Of a stretch of 64,000 nucleotides of DNA, positions 55,666 through 62,733 are shown one piece after another (position 1 is the stretch's first letter; each line of letters opens with the position of its first letter). This DNA comes from an uncultured Clostridia bacterium (lineage in GTDB: Bacteria; Bacillota; Clostridia; Lachnospirales; CAG-274), in assembly GCA_947630475.1 (NCBI GenBank), contig CANRHR010000001.1, forward strand, positions 62,001-126,000, in the 5' to 3' direction. The notes beneath the pieces were generated by a model. The model searched no databases. It was given only the letters and a program-made list of their open reading frames with translations, and was not told the DNA's origin. The translations under genes and the position numbers were made by a program.

Positions 55666-56796
55666 TTATTGAACATTCTGAATTTCTTCAACTAAATCCA
55701 TATCATTTGCAGCATATTTTTCATAAAGAGGCTGCATTGCCTTTTGAAATGCCGCAACATCTGTAACTGGCGTTATTGTACAGCCTTCAGCTTTAACAGT
55801 TTCTTCAGCCGCTTTTTCTGTTTTTGCCCATTCTTCTCTTTCAAGCTCTGAAGAGAGAAGAGCTGCTTCCTTAACCATAACCTTATCATCGGCTGATAAT
55901 GAATTGTAAACATCCGCATTCATTATCATCATTTCAGGTATTCTTGTATGTTCATCAATAGTATAATATTTAGCAACTTTGTAATGACCTGTACTTTCAT
56001 AACTTGGCCAATTATTTTCAGCTCCGTCTATTGTTTTATTTTCGAGAGCCGGCAAAACATCACTGTAACCCATGGCAACCGCCTGAGCGCCAAGCATATT
56101 AACCATATCAATTGCCATCTCGTTGTCTTGTACTCTTATTTTAAGCCCTGCTAAATCTTCCGGAGTTTTTATTTCCTTAACTGAGGTATAGAAGTTTCGT
56201 GCCCCTGAATCATACCATGCCAAGCCCATAACATTGGCTGTATCAACCAAATTTTTAAGAAATTGCTCACCAACATCGCCATTGAGCACTTTCCACATAT
56301 GTGATGAATCTCTATACAAATAAGGAAGCTGGAGTATATTAAGCTCCGGTGAAAAATTGGCTAAAGGCGCAAGACTTACACGCATAAGAGTAACATCACC
56401 GTTTCTTACCATAGGCACAACATCACCTTCGTCACCGTATTCACCGTTAGGGTGAACTTCGACATTAATCCTGTTATCTGAATTTTCCTTAATCAGCCTT
56501 GCAAATTCATATGCGCCAAGAGTAGTGGGATAGTCTTCTTTTTGATTTTCGGAGTATGTCCAAATAATAACATCGCCGCTTTCGGTTTTATCATCGCCTT
56601 CGGCTTTGTTATTTTCAGATTTATCTGATGAATTATTCATGCTTTTTCTTATTTCTTCAGCGCTCTTTCGTGGTCTTCTTACGGTTGTCGTTGATGATGC
56701 TTCGGAAGAATTTGAATTTTCATCTGCTTTATCTGCGCAGCCCGCAAAAATACTTACCGTTAAAAATAACGATAAAATCAATGCAAATTTCTTCAT
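55666..56796 (-). CDS. TRAP transporter solute-binding lipoprotein, DctP family
   Basis: 376 residues. A lipoprotein signal (LFLTVSIFAGC, lipobox Cys near residue 19) is followed by a linker of about 55 residues rich in Ser, Lys, Glu and Arg. The DctP fold follows: ARLIKENSDNRINVEVHPNG, GDVTLMRVSLAPLANFSPEL, LPYLYRDSSHMWKVLNG, GARNFYTSVKEIKTPEDLAG then LKIRVQ (Arg that binds the carboxylate), and GAENNWPSYESTGHYKVAKY. It captures a carboxylate or similar anion for a DctQM permease. No DctQ or DctM gene adjoins it. Confidence 0.92.
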   Translation of the reverse strand: MKKFALILSLFLTVSIFAGCADKADENSNSSEASSTTTVRRPRKSAEEIRKSMNNSSDKSENNKAEGDDKTESGDVIIWTYSENQKEDYPTTLGAYEFARLIKENSDNRINVEVHPNGEYGDEGDVVPMVRNGDVTLMRVSLAPLANFSPELNILQLPYLYRDSSHMWKVLNGDVGEQFLKNLVDTANVMGLAWYDSGARNFYTSVKEIKTPEDLAGLKIRVQDNEMAIDMVNMLGAQAVAMGYSDVLPALENKTIDGAENNWPSYESTGHYKVAKYYTIDEHTRIPEMMIMNADVYNSLSADDKVMVKEAALLSSELEREEWAKTEKAAEETVKAEGCTITPVTDVAAFQKAMQPLYEKYAANDMDLVEEIQNVQ

Positions 56797-56874: not shown

Positions 56875-58041
56875 TTAAAGCTTGCACATTATAATACTTA
56901 CATCGTCCGATTCATATTTTTTGCTTTCGTCGTAATTATAAAATTGATCCAAAACTATATCGATAATATCATCCAGCGATTCATCTCCATATTTTGTATA
57001 AGTAAGCAAAATAGATTTTAAGCGCTTTGTAAACTCATTGTTATCATCTTTGTAATAAAAATCCGACAAGCCGTCTGTATTAAAAAAAAGATAATCGCCA
57101 TTTTCATAACTTATTTTATTGTTTGAATAAACCACATCCTGCAACATTCCAACAGGAACACCTCCAAGCTGCAGCTCCGATGCACTTTTTTTATTTGGCT
57201 CAATAAAAATAGGAAAGCTTTGACCTGCATTTGAATACAACACAGTTTTTTCTTCTATATCTACAATGGCATAAAAAACACAAGCATACATCTGGTTGTC
57301 AGATCCTTCAAAAATGCTGCAAAACTGACGATTCATTGCGTTTAAAAGCCTGTTTGGTTCATCATATTGATAAACAAGAGTATTAAACATCATGCCAAGC
57401 ATAGATGTTAAAAGAGCGGCTGATATTCCATGCCCCGAAACATCGCCTAAAACAATGCCTATTCTGTTTGCATCAAGCATTTTTGCATCAAAAAAATCAC
57501 CGCCGATTTCAAGAGCCGGAAGATACCGGCTCTTAATTTCAAGCTCGCCTATTTTTGAATTAATGTCTTTTATTATAGAGCGCTGAACTTTTCTTGCCGT
57601 TTTAAGCTGAAAATCCAAAAGCTGTGTTTTTTCTTTAAGCTCGTTATACTGCATACTTATTCTGTCGCTTAAGTGCTTAACTCTTAAAAGAGATTTAACC
57701 TTTGAAATAAGAACAGTGCTGTCAAAATTTTTGGGAATATAGTCATCGGCACCGGAATGCAGCGAACGAAGCACATAATCCTTTGTTTCAGCCTCAAGCA
57801 TAATAAGAATTAAACAATACTTTGTTGCTGCATCCGATTTTGTGATTTTACATACATCAAAACCGCTCATGTCATTAAAATCCGAATTGAGCAGTATCAA
57901 ATCCGGATTGAGCATTTTTATTTTTGCCAATGCAGTTTTACCGCCCATAGCCGTATAAATTTTTGAATCATCCGCATCAAGAAATTTACATATAAGGTCA
58001 AGATTTTTTTCATCCTTGTCAACAATAAGAATTTTATCCAT
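56875..58041 (-). CDS. Receiver-PP2C serine phosphatase (RsbU/SpoIIE type) with degenerate receiver
   Basis: 388 residues. Residues 1-120 are a receiver domain (KILIVDKDEKNLDLICKFLD, lysine in YIPKNFDS). The expected phosphoacceptor Asp is Asn: PDLILLNSDFNDMSGFDVC. A coiled coil (NELKEKTQLLDFQLKTARKV) leads to the PP2C domain with EIGGDFFDAK, GIVLGDVSGHGISAALL, FFNTDGLSDFYY and ESDDVSIIMCKL, all metal-binding Asp present. It should dephosphorylate the STAS protein of the same operon and set free the anti-sigma-like kinase. Its start overlaps the upstream HATPase gene by eight bases. Confidence 0.92.
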   Translation of the reverse strand: MDKILIVDKDEKNLDLICKFLDADDSKIYTAMGGKTALAKIKMLNPDLILLNSDFNDMSGFDVCKITKSDAATKYCLILIMLEAETKDYVLRSLHSGADDYIPKNFDSTVLISKVKSLLRVKHLSDRISMQYNELKEKTQLLDFQLKTARKVQRSIIKDINSKIGELEIKSRYLPALEIGGDFFDAKMLDANRIGIVLGDVSGHGISAALLTSMLGMMFNTLVYQYDEPNRLLNAMNRQFCSIFEGSDNQMYACVFYAIVDIEEKTVLYSNAGQSFPIFIEPNKKSASELQLGGVPVGMLQDVVYSNNKISYENGDYLFFNTDGLSDFYYKDDNNEFTKRLKSILLTYTKYGDESLDDIIDIVLDQFYNYDESKKYESDDVSIIMCKL

Positions 58042-58465
58042 TTGACCCCACCTTTTTGCTGAATTTTATAATATTACCCTCTTTATTAAAGCTGAGCTTA
58101 TCAACCAAAGCCATAACAAGCTTAATTCCTCTTCCGCTTTCCATAAAAAGGTCTTCAGCTTTTGTATTTTTTTTCGGAGAAATAATATGATTATAATCAA
58201 ATCCGGCGCCTTCGTCACAGATTCTTACAAACAGAATATTTTTAACAATTTTTACAGATATGCTGACACGCTTGGTTTCATCCTGATGATTTCCGTGTAT
58301 AACCGCATTATACAGAAGCTCGCTTAAAACAAGCTTTATATCCTGTATATCATCGGGAGAAGGATCGCTAATATTTTTATTTATAAAAACCATACAATCG
58401 TTGGTAAGCGTCTTTGCATTTATAATTTTACTCGAAATGGCAGCTTCATATTTACTCTCCATCAT
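58034..58465 (-). CDS. RsbW/SpoIIAB-like HATPase (intact kinase motifs)
   Basis: 143 residues of the GHKL anti-sigma/serine kinase family. The N box is KLVLSELLYNAVIHGNHQ with Glu and Asn, the G1 box is FVRICDEGAGFD, and the G2 box is FMESGRGIKLVMALVDKLSF. All ATP and magnesium contacts look present. It probably phosphorylates the STAS protein and binds a partner that is not encoded nearby. The ribosome binding site is a run of seven G. It is the third gene of a four-gene partner-switching operon. Confidence 0.9.
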   Translation of the reverse strand: MMESKYEAAISSKIINAKTLTNDCMVFINKNISDPSPDDIQDIKLVLSELLYNAVIHGNHQDETKRVSISVKIVKNILFVRICDEGAGFDYNHIISPKKNTKAEDLFMESGRGIKLVMALVDKLSFNKEGNIIKFSKKVGSNG

Positions 58466-58473
58466 AACAATTA

Positions 58474-58480
58474 CCCCCCC
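58474..58480 (-). repeat. Seven-base poly-G tract serving as ribosome binding site
   Basis: Seven C on the + strand (G on the mRNA), eight bases before the ATG at 58465. No other Shine-Dalgarno sequence is present, so tract length may change translation. Confidence 0.6.
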
Positions 58481-58486
58481 TAAATA

Positions 58487-58882
58487 TTAAGGCTCAAGAG
58501 GAATATTGCTGTGCTTTTTTACCATTGTAAGCATAGTTCTGTTTTCTTTATCCAGATATTCATAATCAAACTCATCAATAAGAGCCTTAATCATCAACAA
58601 TCCCATATCATCGTCTTCTATTGCGATTTGGGAAGACTGCTCAACTAAAATTATAATTTTTATTTTATTTTCAAATATCTCAAAGCTTATCTGTAAATCC
58701 GAATTTTCTTTGGGCAGACAATGCTTTATGATATAAGTGCTTGCCTCGGAAACAGCCGCCTTAATATCTTCTATTTCGTCAATGTCAAACTTCATACGAT
58801 TTGCAACAGAAGAAGCCGTAAGACGGGCAGCCGAAACATATGCCGCATCAATCGGCAAAGTTAAACTGATTTTATTGCTCAT
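58487..58882 (-). CDS. RsbW/SpoIIAB-like protein lacking key ATPase residues
   Basis: The start at 58882 follows GAAGGTG and gives 131 residues. The overall plan is that of RsbW/SpoIIAB (LTLPIDAAYVSAARLTASSV, DIKAAVSEASTYIIKHCLPK, DDDMGLLMIKALIDEFDY). In the N box the Mg-binding Asn is replaced by Tyr (SEASTYIIKH for SEAxTNAIxH), and the G1 box D-x-G-x-G is absent (ILVEQSSQIAIED). It may therefore bind a partner without being a kinase. It overlaps the STAS gene upstream by 11 bases and lies 21 bases before the intact HATPase gene. Confidence 0.82.
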   Translation of the reverse strand: MSNKISLTLPIDAAYVSAARLTASSVANRMKFDIDEIEDIKAAVSEASTYIIKHCLPKENSDLQISFEIFENKIKIIILVEQSSQIAIEDDDMGLLMIKALIDEFDYEYLDKENRTMLTMVKKHSNIPLEP

Positions 58883-59204
58883 CTTTTTCACCTTCTATCG
58901 AAAATACTTTATCCAAATTAGTTATTTTAAAAAGCTTATATAAAGTGGATTTAATGTTTAAAAGAGAAATTTCACCTCCAAACTCCTTTGTTTTTTTAAG
59001 AACTGCAATAAGTGACCCTAAGCCCGTACTGTCAATATAAACAAGCTTGTCACAGTCAATTTCAATATTTATTTTTTTTTCTTCAAGCAGCTCAAGCAGT
59101 TCAGATTTAAATTCCTGTGAATTAAAGATATCAATTTCACCCTGAACGCTTACCTCCCATATATTTTTGCTTTCGTTATAATTTTTTTCAATTAAGTGAT
59201 CCAT
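58872..59204 (-). CDS. STAS-domain anti-sigma factor antagonist (RsbV/SpoIIAA type)
   Basis: 110 residues: WEVSVQGEIDIFNSQEFKSE, then DKLVYIDSTGLGSLIAVLKK with the phosphorylatable Ser in DSTGLG, and LLNIKSTLYKLFKITNLDKV. Unphosphorylated, such proteins bind the HATPase kinase and release its target. GGAGG precedes the ATG. First gene of the operon STAS - degenerate HATPase - HATPase - receiver/PP2C; no sigma factor follows. Confidence 0.94.
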   Translation of the reverse strand: MDHLIEKNYNESKNIWEVSVQGEIDIFNSQEFKSELLELLEEKKINIEIDCDKLVYIDSTGLGSLIAVLKKTKEFGGEISLLNIKSTLYKLFKITNLDKVFSIEGEKDEQ

Positions 59205-59679
59205 GTTTAACTCCTCCTAACGTTGTATTGTAATTTTGTGACTAAGGATCGCATATTCAGAAAACTTATAAATATATAAATTATATAAATATTTTGATAA
59301 ATATAAACATAAAATAAAGCTTTAGATAAGATACAAAAACTGTTTAACCAACGGGTCTTTTATAAAAGCAGCTTGCAAGAAAGCGAAGAATTTTAAATTT
59401 CTTTTCTTTATAAGAATAATATAACATAAATTAAAAAATTTTTAAACAAATTTTGAAAAAATATACAAAAAAATTTGTTGATGTGGTAAAATATAACCTG
59501 AATATTTTATAGTAATGCTTATTAATTGCCAAAATAAGGAAAACAACCGCAATTTTCGCCAATATTTTATATAAGAATTGCGTAAGCAGTTCGATTGACT
59601 GCGGCTGTATTTCGGTTCTTTTAATTTTAGTATTTCCTATTAAAATCTTTTTCAACATACAAAACAAAGGAGATTAAGT
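59205..59679. other. Divergent intergenic region, no gene seen
   Basis: 475 AT-rich bases between the STAS operon (leftward) and pheA (rightward). TGGTAAAATATAAC near 59482 could be a -10 region for pheA, but no good -35 was found. A 78-codon open frame on the - strand has no family resemblance and no ribosome binding site. Confidence 0.45.
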
Positions 59680-60510
59680 ATGAAATTAGGATATTTGGGA
59701 CCAAAAGGCTCTTTCTCCGAGCAGGCTGCTCTTAAGGCTGAGGAATGTTCTGTCCTCAGCGAGTATCACACTATAAAAGACGTCATCGAAGCCGTTGAAT
59801 ACGGTGAAATAGACGAAGGTATAGTGCCGATTGAAAATTCAACCGATGGTACTATTAATGTTACTGTAGACAGCTTAATATTTGATTCAAGCCTTTTTAT
59901 AAAAAAACAACTTGAAATATCAATTGAACAAAATTTTCTTGTTAAAAAAAATGCCGATGTTTCAAAAATCACAAAAATTTTATCCCATCCTCAAGGCTTT
60001 GCTCAATGCCGAAAATTTTTATCAGAGAATTTTCCTTATGCCGAAACAATACCTACGGCTTCAACCTCCGATGCTGCAAGGCTTGTCAGTGAAAGCAGCG
60101 AAAATATTGCCGCTATAGGGCTTAAAAATTCAGCGGATATTTACAATCTGCATCTTTATAAAGAAAATATTCAAGACAGAAATGATAATTTTACAACTTT
60201 TGTCGTTTTGTCAAAAAAAGAAATGCAGCCCTCGGTTAATGGCAAAAAAACCTCCGTTGCATTTTCAACCGAAAATAAACCCGGTCAGCTTTATAAAATT
60301 TTGGATATATTTTTTTTGTGGGATTTAAACCTTACAAAAATCGTTTCTCGCCCAATGAAAAATAAAACAAGAGAATATGTTTTTTTTGTTGACTTACAGG
60401 GAGATAATAACGATAAAGATCTACTCGATGCATTAAATATGATAAAAAGAAAAACCTATTTTTTTAAATTTTTAGGTTCTTATCATGTTTATGATTTCAG
60501 AAAAAAATAA
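59680..60510 (+). CDS. pheA: Prephenate dehydratase with ACT domain
   Basis: 276 residues, the monofunctional form. It starts KLGYLGPKGSFSEQAALKAE, then EYGEIDEGIVPIENSTDGTI, ILSHPQGFAQCRKFLSENFP and AAIGLKNSADIYNLHL. The catalytic TRF motif reads FTTF here (DRNDNFTTFVVLS), so the usual Arg is Thr. The ACT domain begins VAFSTENKPGQLYKIL (GALV is GQLY) and has IVSRPMKNKTREYVFFVD (ESRP is VSRP). The enzyme makes phenylpyruvate and the ACT domain binds phenylalanine as inhibitor. The motif changes leave some doubt about activity. AAAGGAG precedes the ATG. Confidence 0.92.
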   Translation: MKLGYLGPKGSFSEQAALKAEECSVLSEYHTIKDVIEAVEYGEIDEGIVPIENSTDGTINVTVDSLIFDSSLFIKKQLEISIEQNFLVKKNADVSKITKILSHPQGFAQCRKFLSENFPYAETIPTASTSDAARLVSESSENIAAIGLKNSADIYNLHLYKENIQDRNDNFTTFVVLSKKEMQPSVNGKKTSVAFSTENKPGQLYKILDIFFLWDLNLTKIVSRPMKNKTREYVFFVDLQGDNNDKDLLDALNMIKRKTYFFKFLGSYHVYDFRKK

Positions 60511-60605
60511 TATTGTCGGTTAAAGCAGTATATTCTCAGCTTTACAGGCTTTTTGTTTAGCCCTTGCGTTTGATTATTTATTTAAAGAATGATAAAATTA
60601 AAGCA

Positions 60606-60633
60606 TTGACTAAATAATTATATTATGTATTAT
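60606..60633 (+). promoter_or_regulatory. Promoter of the MazG-like - gdpP - rplI - dnaB operon
   Basis: TTGACT (60606-60611), 16 bases, TATTAT (60628-60633), ending 25 bases before the MazG-like start. Confidence 0.55.
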
Positions 60634-60658
60634 ATGCTTGTTTAAGGGAGATATTCTT

Positions 60659-60973
60659 ATGATAGAAACAGACAGTAAGCTTTTTGTAACACAAAACATA
60701 AAAATAATAGAAATGCTGAAAAGCCAGCTTCTGGGACATATTGCCGATTTATATGCAAATATGAACGATGAGGGCGAAAGCTTTGAAAAAAGAATTGAAA
60801 TTTTTGTAAATTTGATTATAATTAATTATGCCCTTGCCGCAAAATTAGGCATAAGTCCTTCGGTTCTGGATATAAATGTCATAAAAAAGCTTAAAATAGG
60901 AGCCTTGGATAATAACAACGTAATTTACGGCGAGGTTATAGAGCTTTTGCGGCATTTAAAGAACCGCTGCTGA
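60659..60973 (+). CDS. MazG-like small protein
   Basis: The start at 60659 follows AAGGGAG and gives 104 residues. It is all-helical by composition: VTQNIKIIEMLKSQLLGHIA, FEKRIEIFVNLIIINYALAA, KLGISPSVLDINVIKKLKI and YGEVIELLRHLKNR. This resembles the short MazG-like family found beside gdpP (yybT) and rplI in clostridia. The E-E-x-x-E metal motif of true MazG enzymes is not clear, so activity is unknown. It lies 17 bases upstream of gdpP. Confidence 0.6.
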   Translation: MIETDSKLFVTQNIKIIEMLKSQLLGHIADLYANMNDEGESFEKRIEIFVNLIIINYALAAKLGISPSVLDINVIKKLKIGALDNNNVIYGEVIELLRHLKNRC

Positions 60974-60990
60974 TTTAAGGAGTAAATTAT

Positions 60991-62733
60991 ATGGATAAAA
61001 TTAATATTAATGCTTTGGAAATGCTCTTTCCCTATGCCCTTGCAAACGAAAACAGGGAAATTATAATTTCCAATGATGCTTTCGATTCTGCGTTTTCGGT
61101 TAAAGAAAATACAGAAAGCAGGCTTAAAATAACCGATTTAATTCCGGAATTTAACTTTAATATTAAAAAACAAACAGCCGTTATAAGAGCCAAATGCTAT
61201 AGGGTTTTTTGTATGCCCGACAATGAGCTTGAAAAACATTATCATATTTTTTTAATTGAAAATGGATGCAGTCAAGATAAAAACTGCGTTGTCAACAAAA
61301 TTCTTGTAAGCCTTATATTTATAGATAATTACAATGAAGTTCTTGATACAATAGAAGATGTAAGACATCCTCTTCTTCTTGCCCTTGTAGACAGAAAGCT
61401 TAACAAAATGGCAAGAGATTTGGGCGGAATAGTAAAAAATTTTGAAAAGGATAAATATATTTTTCTGTTTTCGGAAGATAAGCTTGAATATTTAAAAGAA
61501 ACAAAATTTTCCATTCTAAATTCTGTAAGAGAAATCGACATGGGCAACAAGCTTCCCTTAACCTTATCGATAGGCATAGGTATGGGAGGCTCCAGCCTTT
61601 ATCAATCTATGGAATTTGCCAGAGCTGCCATAGATCTTGCCTTGAGCCGAGGCGGCGATCAGGTTTTAATAAAAGATCCGGAAAGATATTATTTTTATGG
61701 GGGTCACTCCAAGGAAATAGGCGCAAACAGCCGAGTAAGGGCAAGAGTTAAGGCGTTTGCTCTTACAGAACTTATAGAGGAAGCATCTGATGTAATAATA
61801 ATGGGTCATAAAAACTGTGATCTTGACTGTCTTGGTTCGGCTGTTGGAGTTTTTTCGATAGTTGATGCAATGCAGAAAAAATGCAGCATTGTTTTAAATA
61901 AGGTTACAAGCGCAATAAGCATACTTTATGATCGCCTTTTAGAAAAGCCTGACTTTATGAATGTTTTTATAAATACACAACAGGCTCTTAATAAAATAAA
62001 CGATAAAACTCTGCTGATTGTGGTGGATACTCATATACCGACTATTTGCGATGCTCCGGAGCTTCTTGAAAATGCAAAAAAAATTGTTGTATTTGACCAT
62101 CACAGAAAAAGCGCCGAGTTTATAAATAATGCCGTACTTTCATATCACGAGCCATATGCATCCTCTGCAAGCGAACTTATAACGGAAATGCTGTTATATA
62201 CAAACAAGCATATAAACCTTACAAGCATAGCCGCTGATGCCCTGCTTGCCGGAATAACAGTAGATACAAAAAACTTTGCGCTTAAAACCGGTACAAAAAC
62301 ATTTGAAGCAGCCGCTTATCTCAGAAGAAACGGAGCCGACCCGGTAAGAGTAAGAACACTGTTTAAAAGCAGTTTTGATCTTTACAAAGCAAAAACAGAA
62401 GTTGTTTCAAATGCGGAGTTTTATCTTAAAAATATGGCAATATCCGTATGCGGAAAATATGATGACAATCCTACACTTCTTGCAGCCAAGGCGGCAGATG
62501 AGCTATTGTATATAAATAATGTGGAAGCAAGCTTTGTTTTGTTTGATAACGGATCGGGAACATCTATCAGCGCAAGAAGCTTAGAAAATATAAACGTTCA
62601 GGTTATTATGGAAAAATTGGGCGGCGGCGGGCATCAATCAGTTTCAGCCGTTCAGCTTAAGGGCATAGGAATAGATGAAGCAATAAAAATGCTTAAAAAC
62701 GCCATTGATGAATACTTAAAGGAGGAAAAATAA
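60991..62733 (+). CDS. gdpP: GdpP-type cyclic-di-AMP phosphodiesterase without the N-terminal membrane segments
   Basis: 580 residues. The order is PAS-like (about 1-85), degenerate GGDEF (about 100-230) and DHH/DHHA1 (about 265-575). The DHH motifs are IIMGHKNCDLDCLGSAVGVF, LLIVVDTHIPTIC, IVVFDHHRKSAEF and LGGGGHQSVSAVQL. GdpP hydrolyses the second messenger c-di-AMP. Bacillus GdpP is about 659 residues with two transmembrane helices first; here the protein starts MDKININALEMLFPYALANE with no hydrophobic segment, so it should be soluble. AAGGAG precedes the ATG. rplI follows immediately, as in Bacillus. Confidence 0.93.
   Translation: MDKININALEMLFPYALANENREIIISNDAFDSAFSVKENTESRLKITDLIPEFNFNIKKQTAVIRAKCYRVFCMPDNELEKHYHIFLIENGCSQDKNCVVNKILVSLIFIDNYNEVLDTIEDVRHPLLLALVDRKLNKMARDLGGIVKNFEKDKYIFLFSEDKLEYLKETKFSILNSVREIDMGNKLPLTLSIGIGMGGSSLYQSMEFARAAIDLALSRGGDQVLIKDPERYYFYGGHSKEIGANSRVRARVKAFALTELIEEASDVIIMGHKNCDLDCLGSAVGVFSIVDAMQKKCSIVLNKVTSAISILYDRLLEKPDFMNVFINTQQALNKINDKTLLIVVDTHIPTICDAPELLENAKKIVVFDHHRKSAEFINNAVLSYHEPYASSASELITEMLLYTNKHINLTSIAADALLAGITVDTKNFALKTGTKTFEAAAYLRRNGADPVRVRTLFKSSFDLYKAKTEVVSNAEFYLKNMAISVCGKYDDNPTLLAAKAADELLYINNVEASFVLFDNGSGTSISARSLENINVQVIMEKLGGGGHQSVSAVQLKGIGIDEAIKMLKNAIDEYLKEEK

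Follow-up and report, generated by a model that had tools for sequence, protein, structure and literature searches.

Canonical RsbW proteins join client binding and kinase activity, as in the RsbV-RsbW-SigB switch of B. subtilis, where RsbW is kinase and anti-sigma factor in one. Experimentally, the operon described here has its closest parallel in M. smegmatis. In the SigF switch of that species, RsbW1 acts as an anti-SigF factor without kinase activity, and the kinase is RsbW2, a separate HATPase with N/G1/G2 motifs that is unable to bind SigF; the STAS antagonist is RsfB, and a receiver-PP2C protein, RsfR, dephosphorylates the STAS protein (PMC7693655, PMC10950880). A receiver-PP2C phosphatase acting on a STAS antagonist is also part of the RsbK-RsbY-RsbV-RsbW-SigB system of B. 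cereus (PMC10950880), and the STAS/HATPase/PP2C logic serves outputs beyond a dedicated stress sigma factor in SypA/SypE, BtrU/V/W and Chlamydia Rsb (PMC8256260, PMC4552016). A literature search for kinase-dead RsbW returned no description of the four-gene operon reported below.

Gene content of the operon

The operon occupies positions 56875-59204 on the minus strand of the window (the whole 64,000-nt stretch of DNA that was analysed), where ORF reading reveals four tightly packed genes in the order STAS-HK1-HK2-REC-PP2C. ORFs and Pfam matches together confirm the makeup proposed in an earlier note on this DNA, namely STAS, a degenerate HATPase, an intact HATPase and a receiver-PP2C protein. 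The region contains the following features:

58872-59204, minus strand: STAS, anti-anti-sigma-type, 110 aa (Pfam STAS, 5.9e-19), with Ser59 in a DST motif
58487-58891, minus strand: HK1, RsbW-type HATPase predicted to be kinase-dead, 134 aa (Pfam HATPase_c_2, 3e-11)
58034-58465, minus strand: HK2, HATPase Ser/Thr kinase with intact motifs, 143 aa (Pfam HATPase_c_2, 9.9e-20)
56875-58041, minus strand: REC-PP2C phosphatase, 388 aa (Response_reg, 1.3e-15; SpoIIE/PP2C, 2e-35)
59205-59679, no strand: intergenic region between the operon and divergent pheA, holding the operon's Shine-Dalgarno sequence and any promoter
59680-62733, plus strand: pheA, MazG-like and gdpP, conserved divergent neighbours outside the switch

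HK1 overlaps STAS by 20 nt and is followed after 21 nt by HK2, which REC-PP2C overlaps by 8 nt. The phosphatase is composed of a pseudo-receiver (residues ~1-120), a helical linker of 49 residues (108-156) and a PP2C domain (~161-388). A Shine-Dalgarno sequence, reading TCCTCC on the plus strand, lies directly upstream of the STAS start; a consensus promoter scan of 59205-59679 gave a score not above that of shuffles. The downstream TRAP solute-binding gene (55666-56796) was rejected as the output, as orthologous loci share no conserved downstream gene.

By content and motifs, the four genes map one to one onto the M. smegmatis SigF switch. However, that switch has SigF as its known client and its rsbW1 gene stands away from rsbW2/rsfR, whereas the window carries all four genes as one operon, with no SigB-like sigma factor found; the phosphorylation site of RsfR is Asp74, while the window receiver has Asn. 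The B. subtilis switch shares with the window the STAS and RsbW folds, the docking residues and the phosphorylatable Ser, but HK1 is without an ATP site and SigB is absent. In B. cereus RsbY is activated through phosphorylation by RsbK, whereas the window receiver has no phosphoacceptor and, again, there is no SigB. SypA/SypE, BtrU/V/W and Chlamydia Rsb have other domain layouts, and their operons are not known to include an obligate kinase-dead RsbW paralogue. In the window, client binding and kinase activity appear to be separated within a single compact operon, and the usual client is missing.

Conservation and distribution of the module

Of 392 genomes from the order, 54 yielded an HK1 in a search with a profile built from 13 HK1s. 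STAS adjoins HK1 in 50 of the 53 loci examined, and the order STAS-HK1-HK2-REC-PP2C is maintained as far as contigs reach. A separate search with a phosphatase profile found the module phosphatase in 49 genomes, all of them among the 54 with HK1; the remaining five comprise three that carry HK1 only and two in which the contig ends. Because all 49 phosphatase genomes also carry HK1, it appears to be an obligate, non-catalytic part of the module, kept across many families, and no stray degenerate copy.

When the flanks of these loci were clustered by similarity, the recurrent neighbours on the divergent side were pheA, MazG-like, gdpP, rplI and dnaB. These conserved neighbours often accompany the operon, which points to a history of vertical inheritance and loss. 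No sigma family recurs in the clustered flanks of orthologous loci, and a sigma gene hidden beside the operon in orthologues was rejected on these grounds.

The catalytic parts that had been read as intact, namely the STAS serine, the second HATPase and the PP2C metal ligands, hold up well. Among STAS orthologues Ser59 and D25 are found in 50/50 and Y56 in 45/50. HK2 carries N53, D84, G86, G88 and GRG, with N-box, G1 and G2 present in 49/49 orthologues, and the acidic metal ligands of the PP2C domain (D200, D379 and D380) are kept in 46-47 of 47. By every sequence criterion, the module appears conserved and functional.

ATP site and docking face of HK1

The best solved relative of HK1 by sequence is RsbW in its complex with RsbV (5.8e-21). 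The NCBIfam RsbW equivalog scores 82.8 bits against HK1, below its cut-off of 145, in a match spanning residues 1-82 only. The predicted HK1 fold (pLDDT 88) is closest to RsbW (Foldseek 1.4e-10), and the solved-chain matches of HK1 are RsbW and SpoIIAB, not RsbT. Aligned to solved RsbW (6m36), HK1 has Tyr53 at the site of the N-box Asn and is missing DxGxG, which bears out the claim that the first HATPase is without the Mg-binding Asn and the G1 box. Further to that, in the predicted structure strand 76-85 is followed by helix 96-104 with no intervening helix, in the expected place of G1 and the ATP lid. Orthologues do not restore the catalytic residues: the N-box position is Tyr in 29, Phe in 19, Leu in 3 and Ile in 2, and Asn in 0/53, compared to 49/49 for HK2, and a G1-like motif is present in 2/53 HK1s vs 49/49 HK2s. 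In the tree, where the degenerate relatives judged by eye are the f115 rows, L154 and L169, and where L152 carries TEAVTNA, HK1s form one clade within the RsbW-type group, on a long branch apart from HK2 and SpoIIAB. The HK1 defect is thus best read as one ancestral loss.

A lost ATP site and a poorly conserved C-terminal half are what a decaying, functionless remnant might show. However, HK1 is missing from 0/49 module genomes, its N-terminal half is nearly invariant over many families, and its ORF is intact in the loci read; this conservation nearly refutes the remnant reading.

In the RsbV-RsbW crystal structure, RsbW residues Arg23, Asp42, Lys44/Ser48, Glu49 and Tyr118 hydrogen-bond RsbV (PMC7340262, whose RsbW numbering is followed here). 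The numbering of HK1 is identical to that of RsbW through the first five contacts, and these are conserved among the 53 HK1s at 98% (Arg23), 94% (Asp42), 96% (Lys44), 98% (Ser48) and 96% (Glu49), vs a mean of 56% per HK1 column; the count covers these five contacts, as the Tyr118 equivalent falls in the divergent C-terminal half. On the STAS side, the partner residues are conserved as well (D25 100%, S59 100%, Y56 90%, K90 94%). HK1 therefore appears to have kept the RsbV-docking face, with the ATP site gone, and is very probably a non-catalytic binding protein. HK2 shows the reverse, with a complete ATP site and, in a weak profile alignment, no residue aligned to Arg23. For the SpoIIAB equivalents of Arg23 and Lys44, which are Arg20 and Lys41, a role in mediating sigma binding has also been described (PMC10345196).

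We suggest that the operon is, with fair probability, a split partner switch, in which client binding resides in HK1 and kinase activity in HK2. We infer that HK2 would phosphorylate STAS on Ser59, and that REC-PP2C would remove this phosphate once a signal engages the receiver or the linker. Unphosphorylated STAS would then dock on HK1 via the face that RsbV uses on RsbW, displacing the HK1 client. This client would not be of SigB type; it could be a protein outside the sigma factors or another sigma factor, among which only SigA is expected in every genome.

HK1 in genomes without STAS

HK1 is found alone in G031 and G052, which belong to one family, and in G042 from another; the adjoining STAS, HK2 and PP2C genes are missing in all three, and a search of these genomes found no module STAS elsewhere. 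The lone copies, from three genomes in two lineages, are located at:

L061 3324-3731, minus strand: lone HK1, between pheA and rpsR
L146 5235-5651, plus strand: lone HK1, between pheA and rpsR
L151 5201-5641, plus strand: lone HK1

Of all 53 HK1s, only those of the three STAS-less genomes deviate at Arg23 (to K) and at Glu49 (to A or T), and over all five docking residues 6/15 cells depart without STAS vs 3/250 with STAS. A permutation over conserved columns gave p ~0.045, for a set in which the STAS-less HK1s are more divergent overall and STAS was lost twice independently. Erosion of the docking residues after STAS loss supports STAS docking, without proving it, and the STAS-less lineages amount to a natural mutagenesis that could help to tell docking residues from catalytic ones. 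At the same time, dN/dS between the HK1 genes of sister genomes G031 and G052 is ~0.2 (0.27/1.31), which indicates that a role not involving STAS probably accounts for the retention of HK1. In the three genomes it may function independently of STAS or persist as a remnant.

These lone copies bear on the possibility that HK1 is a decoy with no client of its own, titrating unphosphorylated STAS away from HK2 or SpoIIAB, or forming mixed HATPase dimers. HK1 could indeed bind STAS while binding no client, and its conserved docking residues fit such a role, as does the antagonism of RsbW1 by M. smegmatis RsbW3 through heterodimer formation (PMC10950880); RsbW dimerises through beta1/alpha1 (PMC7340262), which corresponds to the best-conserved region of HK1. 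However, a decoy would have no reason to outlive STAS, yet HK1 persists alone in three genomes, with the low dN/dS seen in two of them, and the HK1 clade is separate from HK2, on a long branch. We regard the decoy as unlikely. The scaffold or decoy role proposed in the earlier note for the degenerate HATPase is supported as far as a conserved non-catalytic binding protein is concerned, while a decoy seems less likely than a STAS-gated target-binding arm because of the conserved docking face and the precedent of RsbW1/RsbW2 in M. smegmatis.

Sigma factors and the candidate client of HK1

It had been noted that no sigma gene follows the operon, and this absence extends well beyond the locus. A census of the source genome gave 11 sigma factors (SigA, SigF, SigG, SigE, SigK, SigH, FliA and four ECF-type), with no SigB and with the SigB/F/G family represented by SigF, which adjoins its own SpoIIAA/AB, and SigG only. 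In 36 module-bearing genomes, drafts of fair to good quality, a third sigma factor of this family was found in 0/36, the count never rising above two (SigF, SigG). As modules of this kind can sit far from their sigma gene, the genome-wide absence weighs more than the local one. Since none of the 36 genomes exceeds two SigB/F/G sigmas, a dedicated SigB-like client appears excluded as far as draft genomes allow, leaving SigA or a non-sigma client. The earlier suggestion of a non-sigma target or a distant sigma factor can be narrowed to this extent, as neither the source genome nor the 36 module genomes yielded a cognate sigma factor of SigB-like type.

HK1 could still be an anti-sigma factor whose client is a shared resident sigma (SigA, SigF/SigG or FliA), a sub-case of the split switch. 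The tree places HK1 in RsbW ancestry, and Chlamydia provides an example of an RsbW that binds the primary sigma factor (PMC4552016). Moreover, in other parts of the phylum, degenerate RsbW relatives directly precede the gene of a SigB-family sigma factor:

L183 5962-6339, minus strand: degenerate RsbW relative, family f115
L184 5855-6232, plus strand: degenerate RsbW relative, family f115
L181 2239-2649, minus strand: degenerate RsbW relative
L182 5837-6238, minus strand: degenerate RsbW relative

These four, from three other families of the phylum, have lost the N-box Asn, and a STAS gene precedes them in f115 and f28; in L188, also of f115, a degenerate relative is again immediately before a SigB-family gene. 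These positions suggest that an RsbW protein without kinase activity can serve as an anti-sigma factor, and that the sigma factor was lost or replaced in this order. Against a shared sigma, FliA is absent from 11/36 module genomes and was rejected as the client, and SigF/SigG as the sole client was rejected since module-bearing G001 and G220, drafts 91-92% complete, gave no SigB/F/G-family match at the threshold used. Only SigA-like clients fit all genomes, and we consider a shared sigma possible but rather doubtful. With the module present and no SigF/SigG-family match, G001 and G220 are possibly non-sporulating.

Within the split switch, the client may alternatively lie outside the sigma factors. 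HK1 would then descend from an RsbW, with both kinase activity and sigma factor lost along the way; it would now bind a non-sigma client released by unphosphorylated STAS, and would have become independent of the switch in two lineages. We hold this version tentatively, as a serious candidate that falls somewhat short of an even chance. If true, it would represent a partner switch with a new output class in endospore-forming bacteria. The operon poses a testable question: what does an RsbW-type protein bind where no SigB exists?

Another switch with no sigma gene next to it lies in the source genome at C2:108484-112275 (L062 8485-12276). It consists of STAS, a 943-aa 5TMR/HAMP-PP2C-HATPase fusion and the 203-aa P0001, which has no Pfam match and in which the stretch LRLLAEELVGML resembles a degenerate HATPase N-box.

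The phosphatase and its receiver

The RssB-RssC system of P. aeruginosa is an adaptor for sigma-S degradation and is not known to have an HATPase pair like HK1/HK2. Its RssB (3f7a), encoded beside an rsbV homologue (PMC12143880), is the closest full-length fold match of REC-PP2C. A linker-dimerisation mechanism has been proposed for phosphatases of this type (PMC12143880), and the 49-residue helical linker and the RssB match would agree with it.

Given this linker, either HK1 or HK2 might instead bind it as an RsbT-like activator and switch the phosphatase on; RsbT, likewise an HATPase protein, activates RsbU through an ordering of the RsbU linker (PMC12143880). The helical linker of the window phosphatase and its match to RssB are compatible with this. 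However, an RsbT chain is absent from the structure matches of HK1, on which ground HK1 was rejected as RsbT-like, and HK1 keeps the RsbV-docking residues; we consider such an activator very unlikely.

As the earlier note had read, the window receiver has Asn (Asn52) for the phosphoacceptor Asp; it also has Leu82/Glu83 where relatives carry T/S, with D8 and K104 retained. The second receiver of PleD, another match of the window receiver, likewise has Asn at the phosphoacceptor position. The usual Asp phosphorylation would be unable to control this domain, and control is presumably by binding, or by another route. The substitution is not stable across orthologues, unlike the losses in HK1: among 47 receivers, residue 52 is Asp in 21, Asn in 12, Ser in 6, Ala in 3, Glu in 3, Gly in 1 and Arg in 1. 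Well-supported tree branches force at least 7 changes of the Asp52 state. From this distribution, the pseudo-receiver appears to be a recurrent, lineage-specific state. Orthologues with the catalytic residue restored, named in the earlier note as grounds for refutation, therefore exist for the receiver and not for HK1. Control by binding instead of phosphorylation is likely in the source genome, but cannot be extended to the module as a whole, as 21/47 keep Asp.

The orthologous phosphatases provide a tree-resolved series from canonical receiver to pseudo-receiver. The full canonical set (phosphoacceptor Asp, acidic pair, T/S and Lys) is present in 6/47, all of one other family, f24:

L121-L124, L127 and L135: loci with fully canonical receivers

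In L124, a gene for a GAF-PAS protein lies convergent to the operon.
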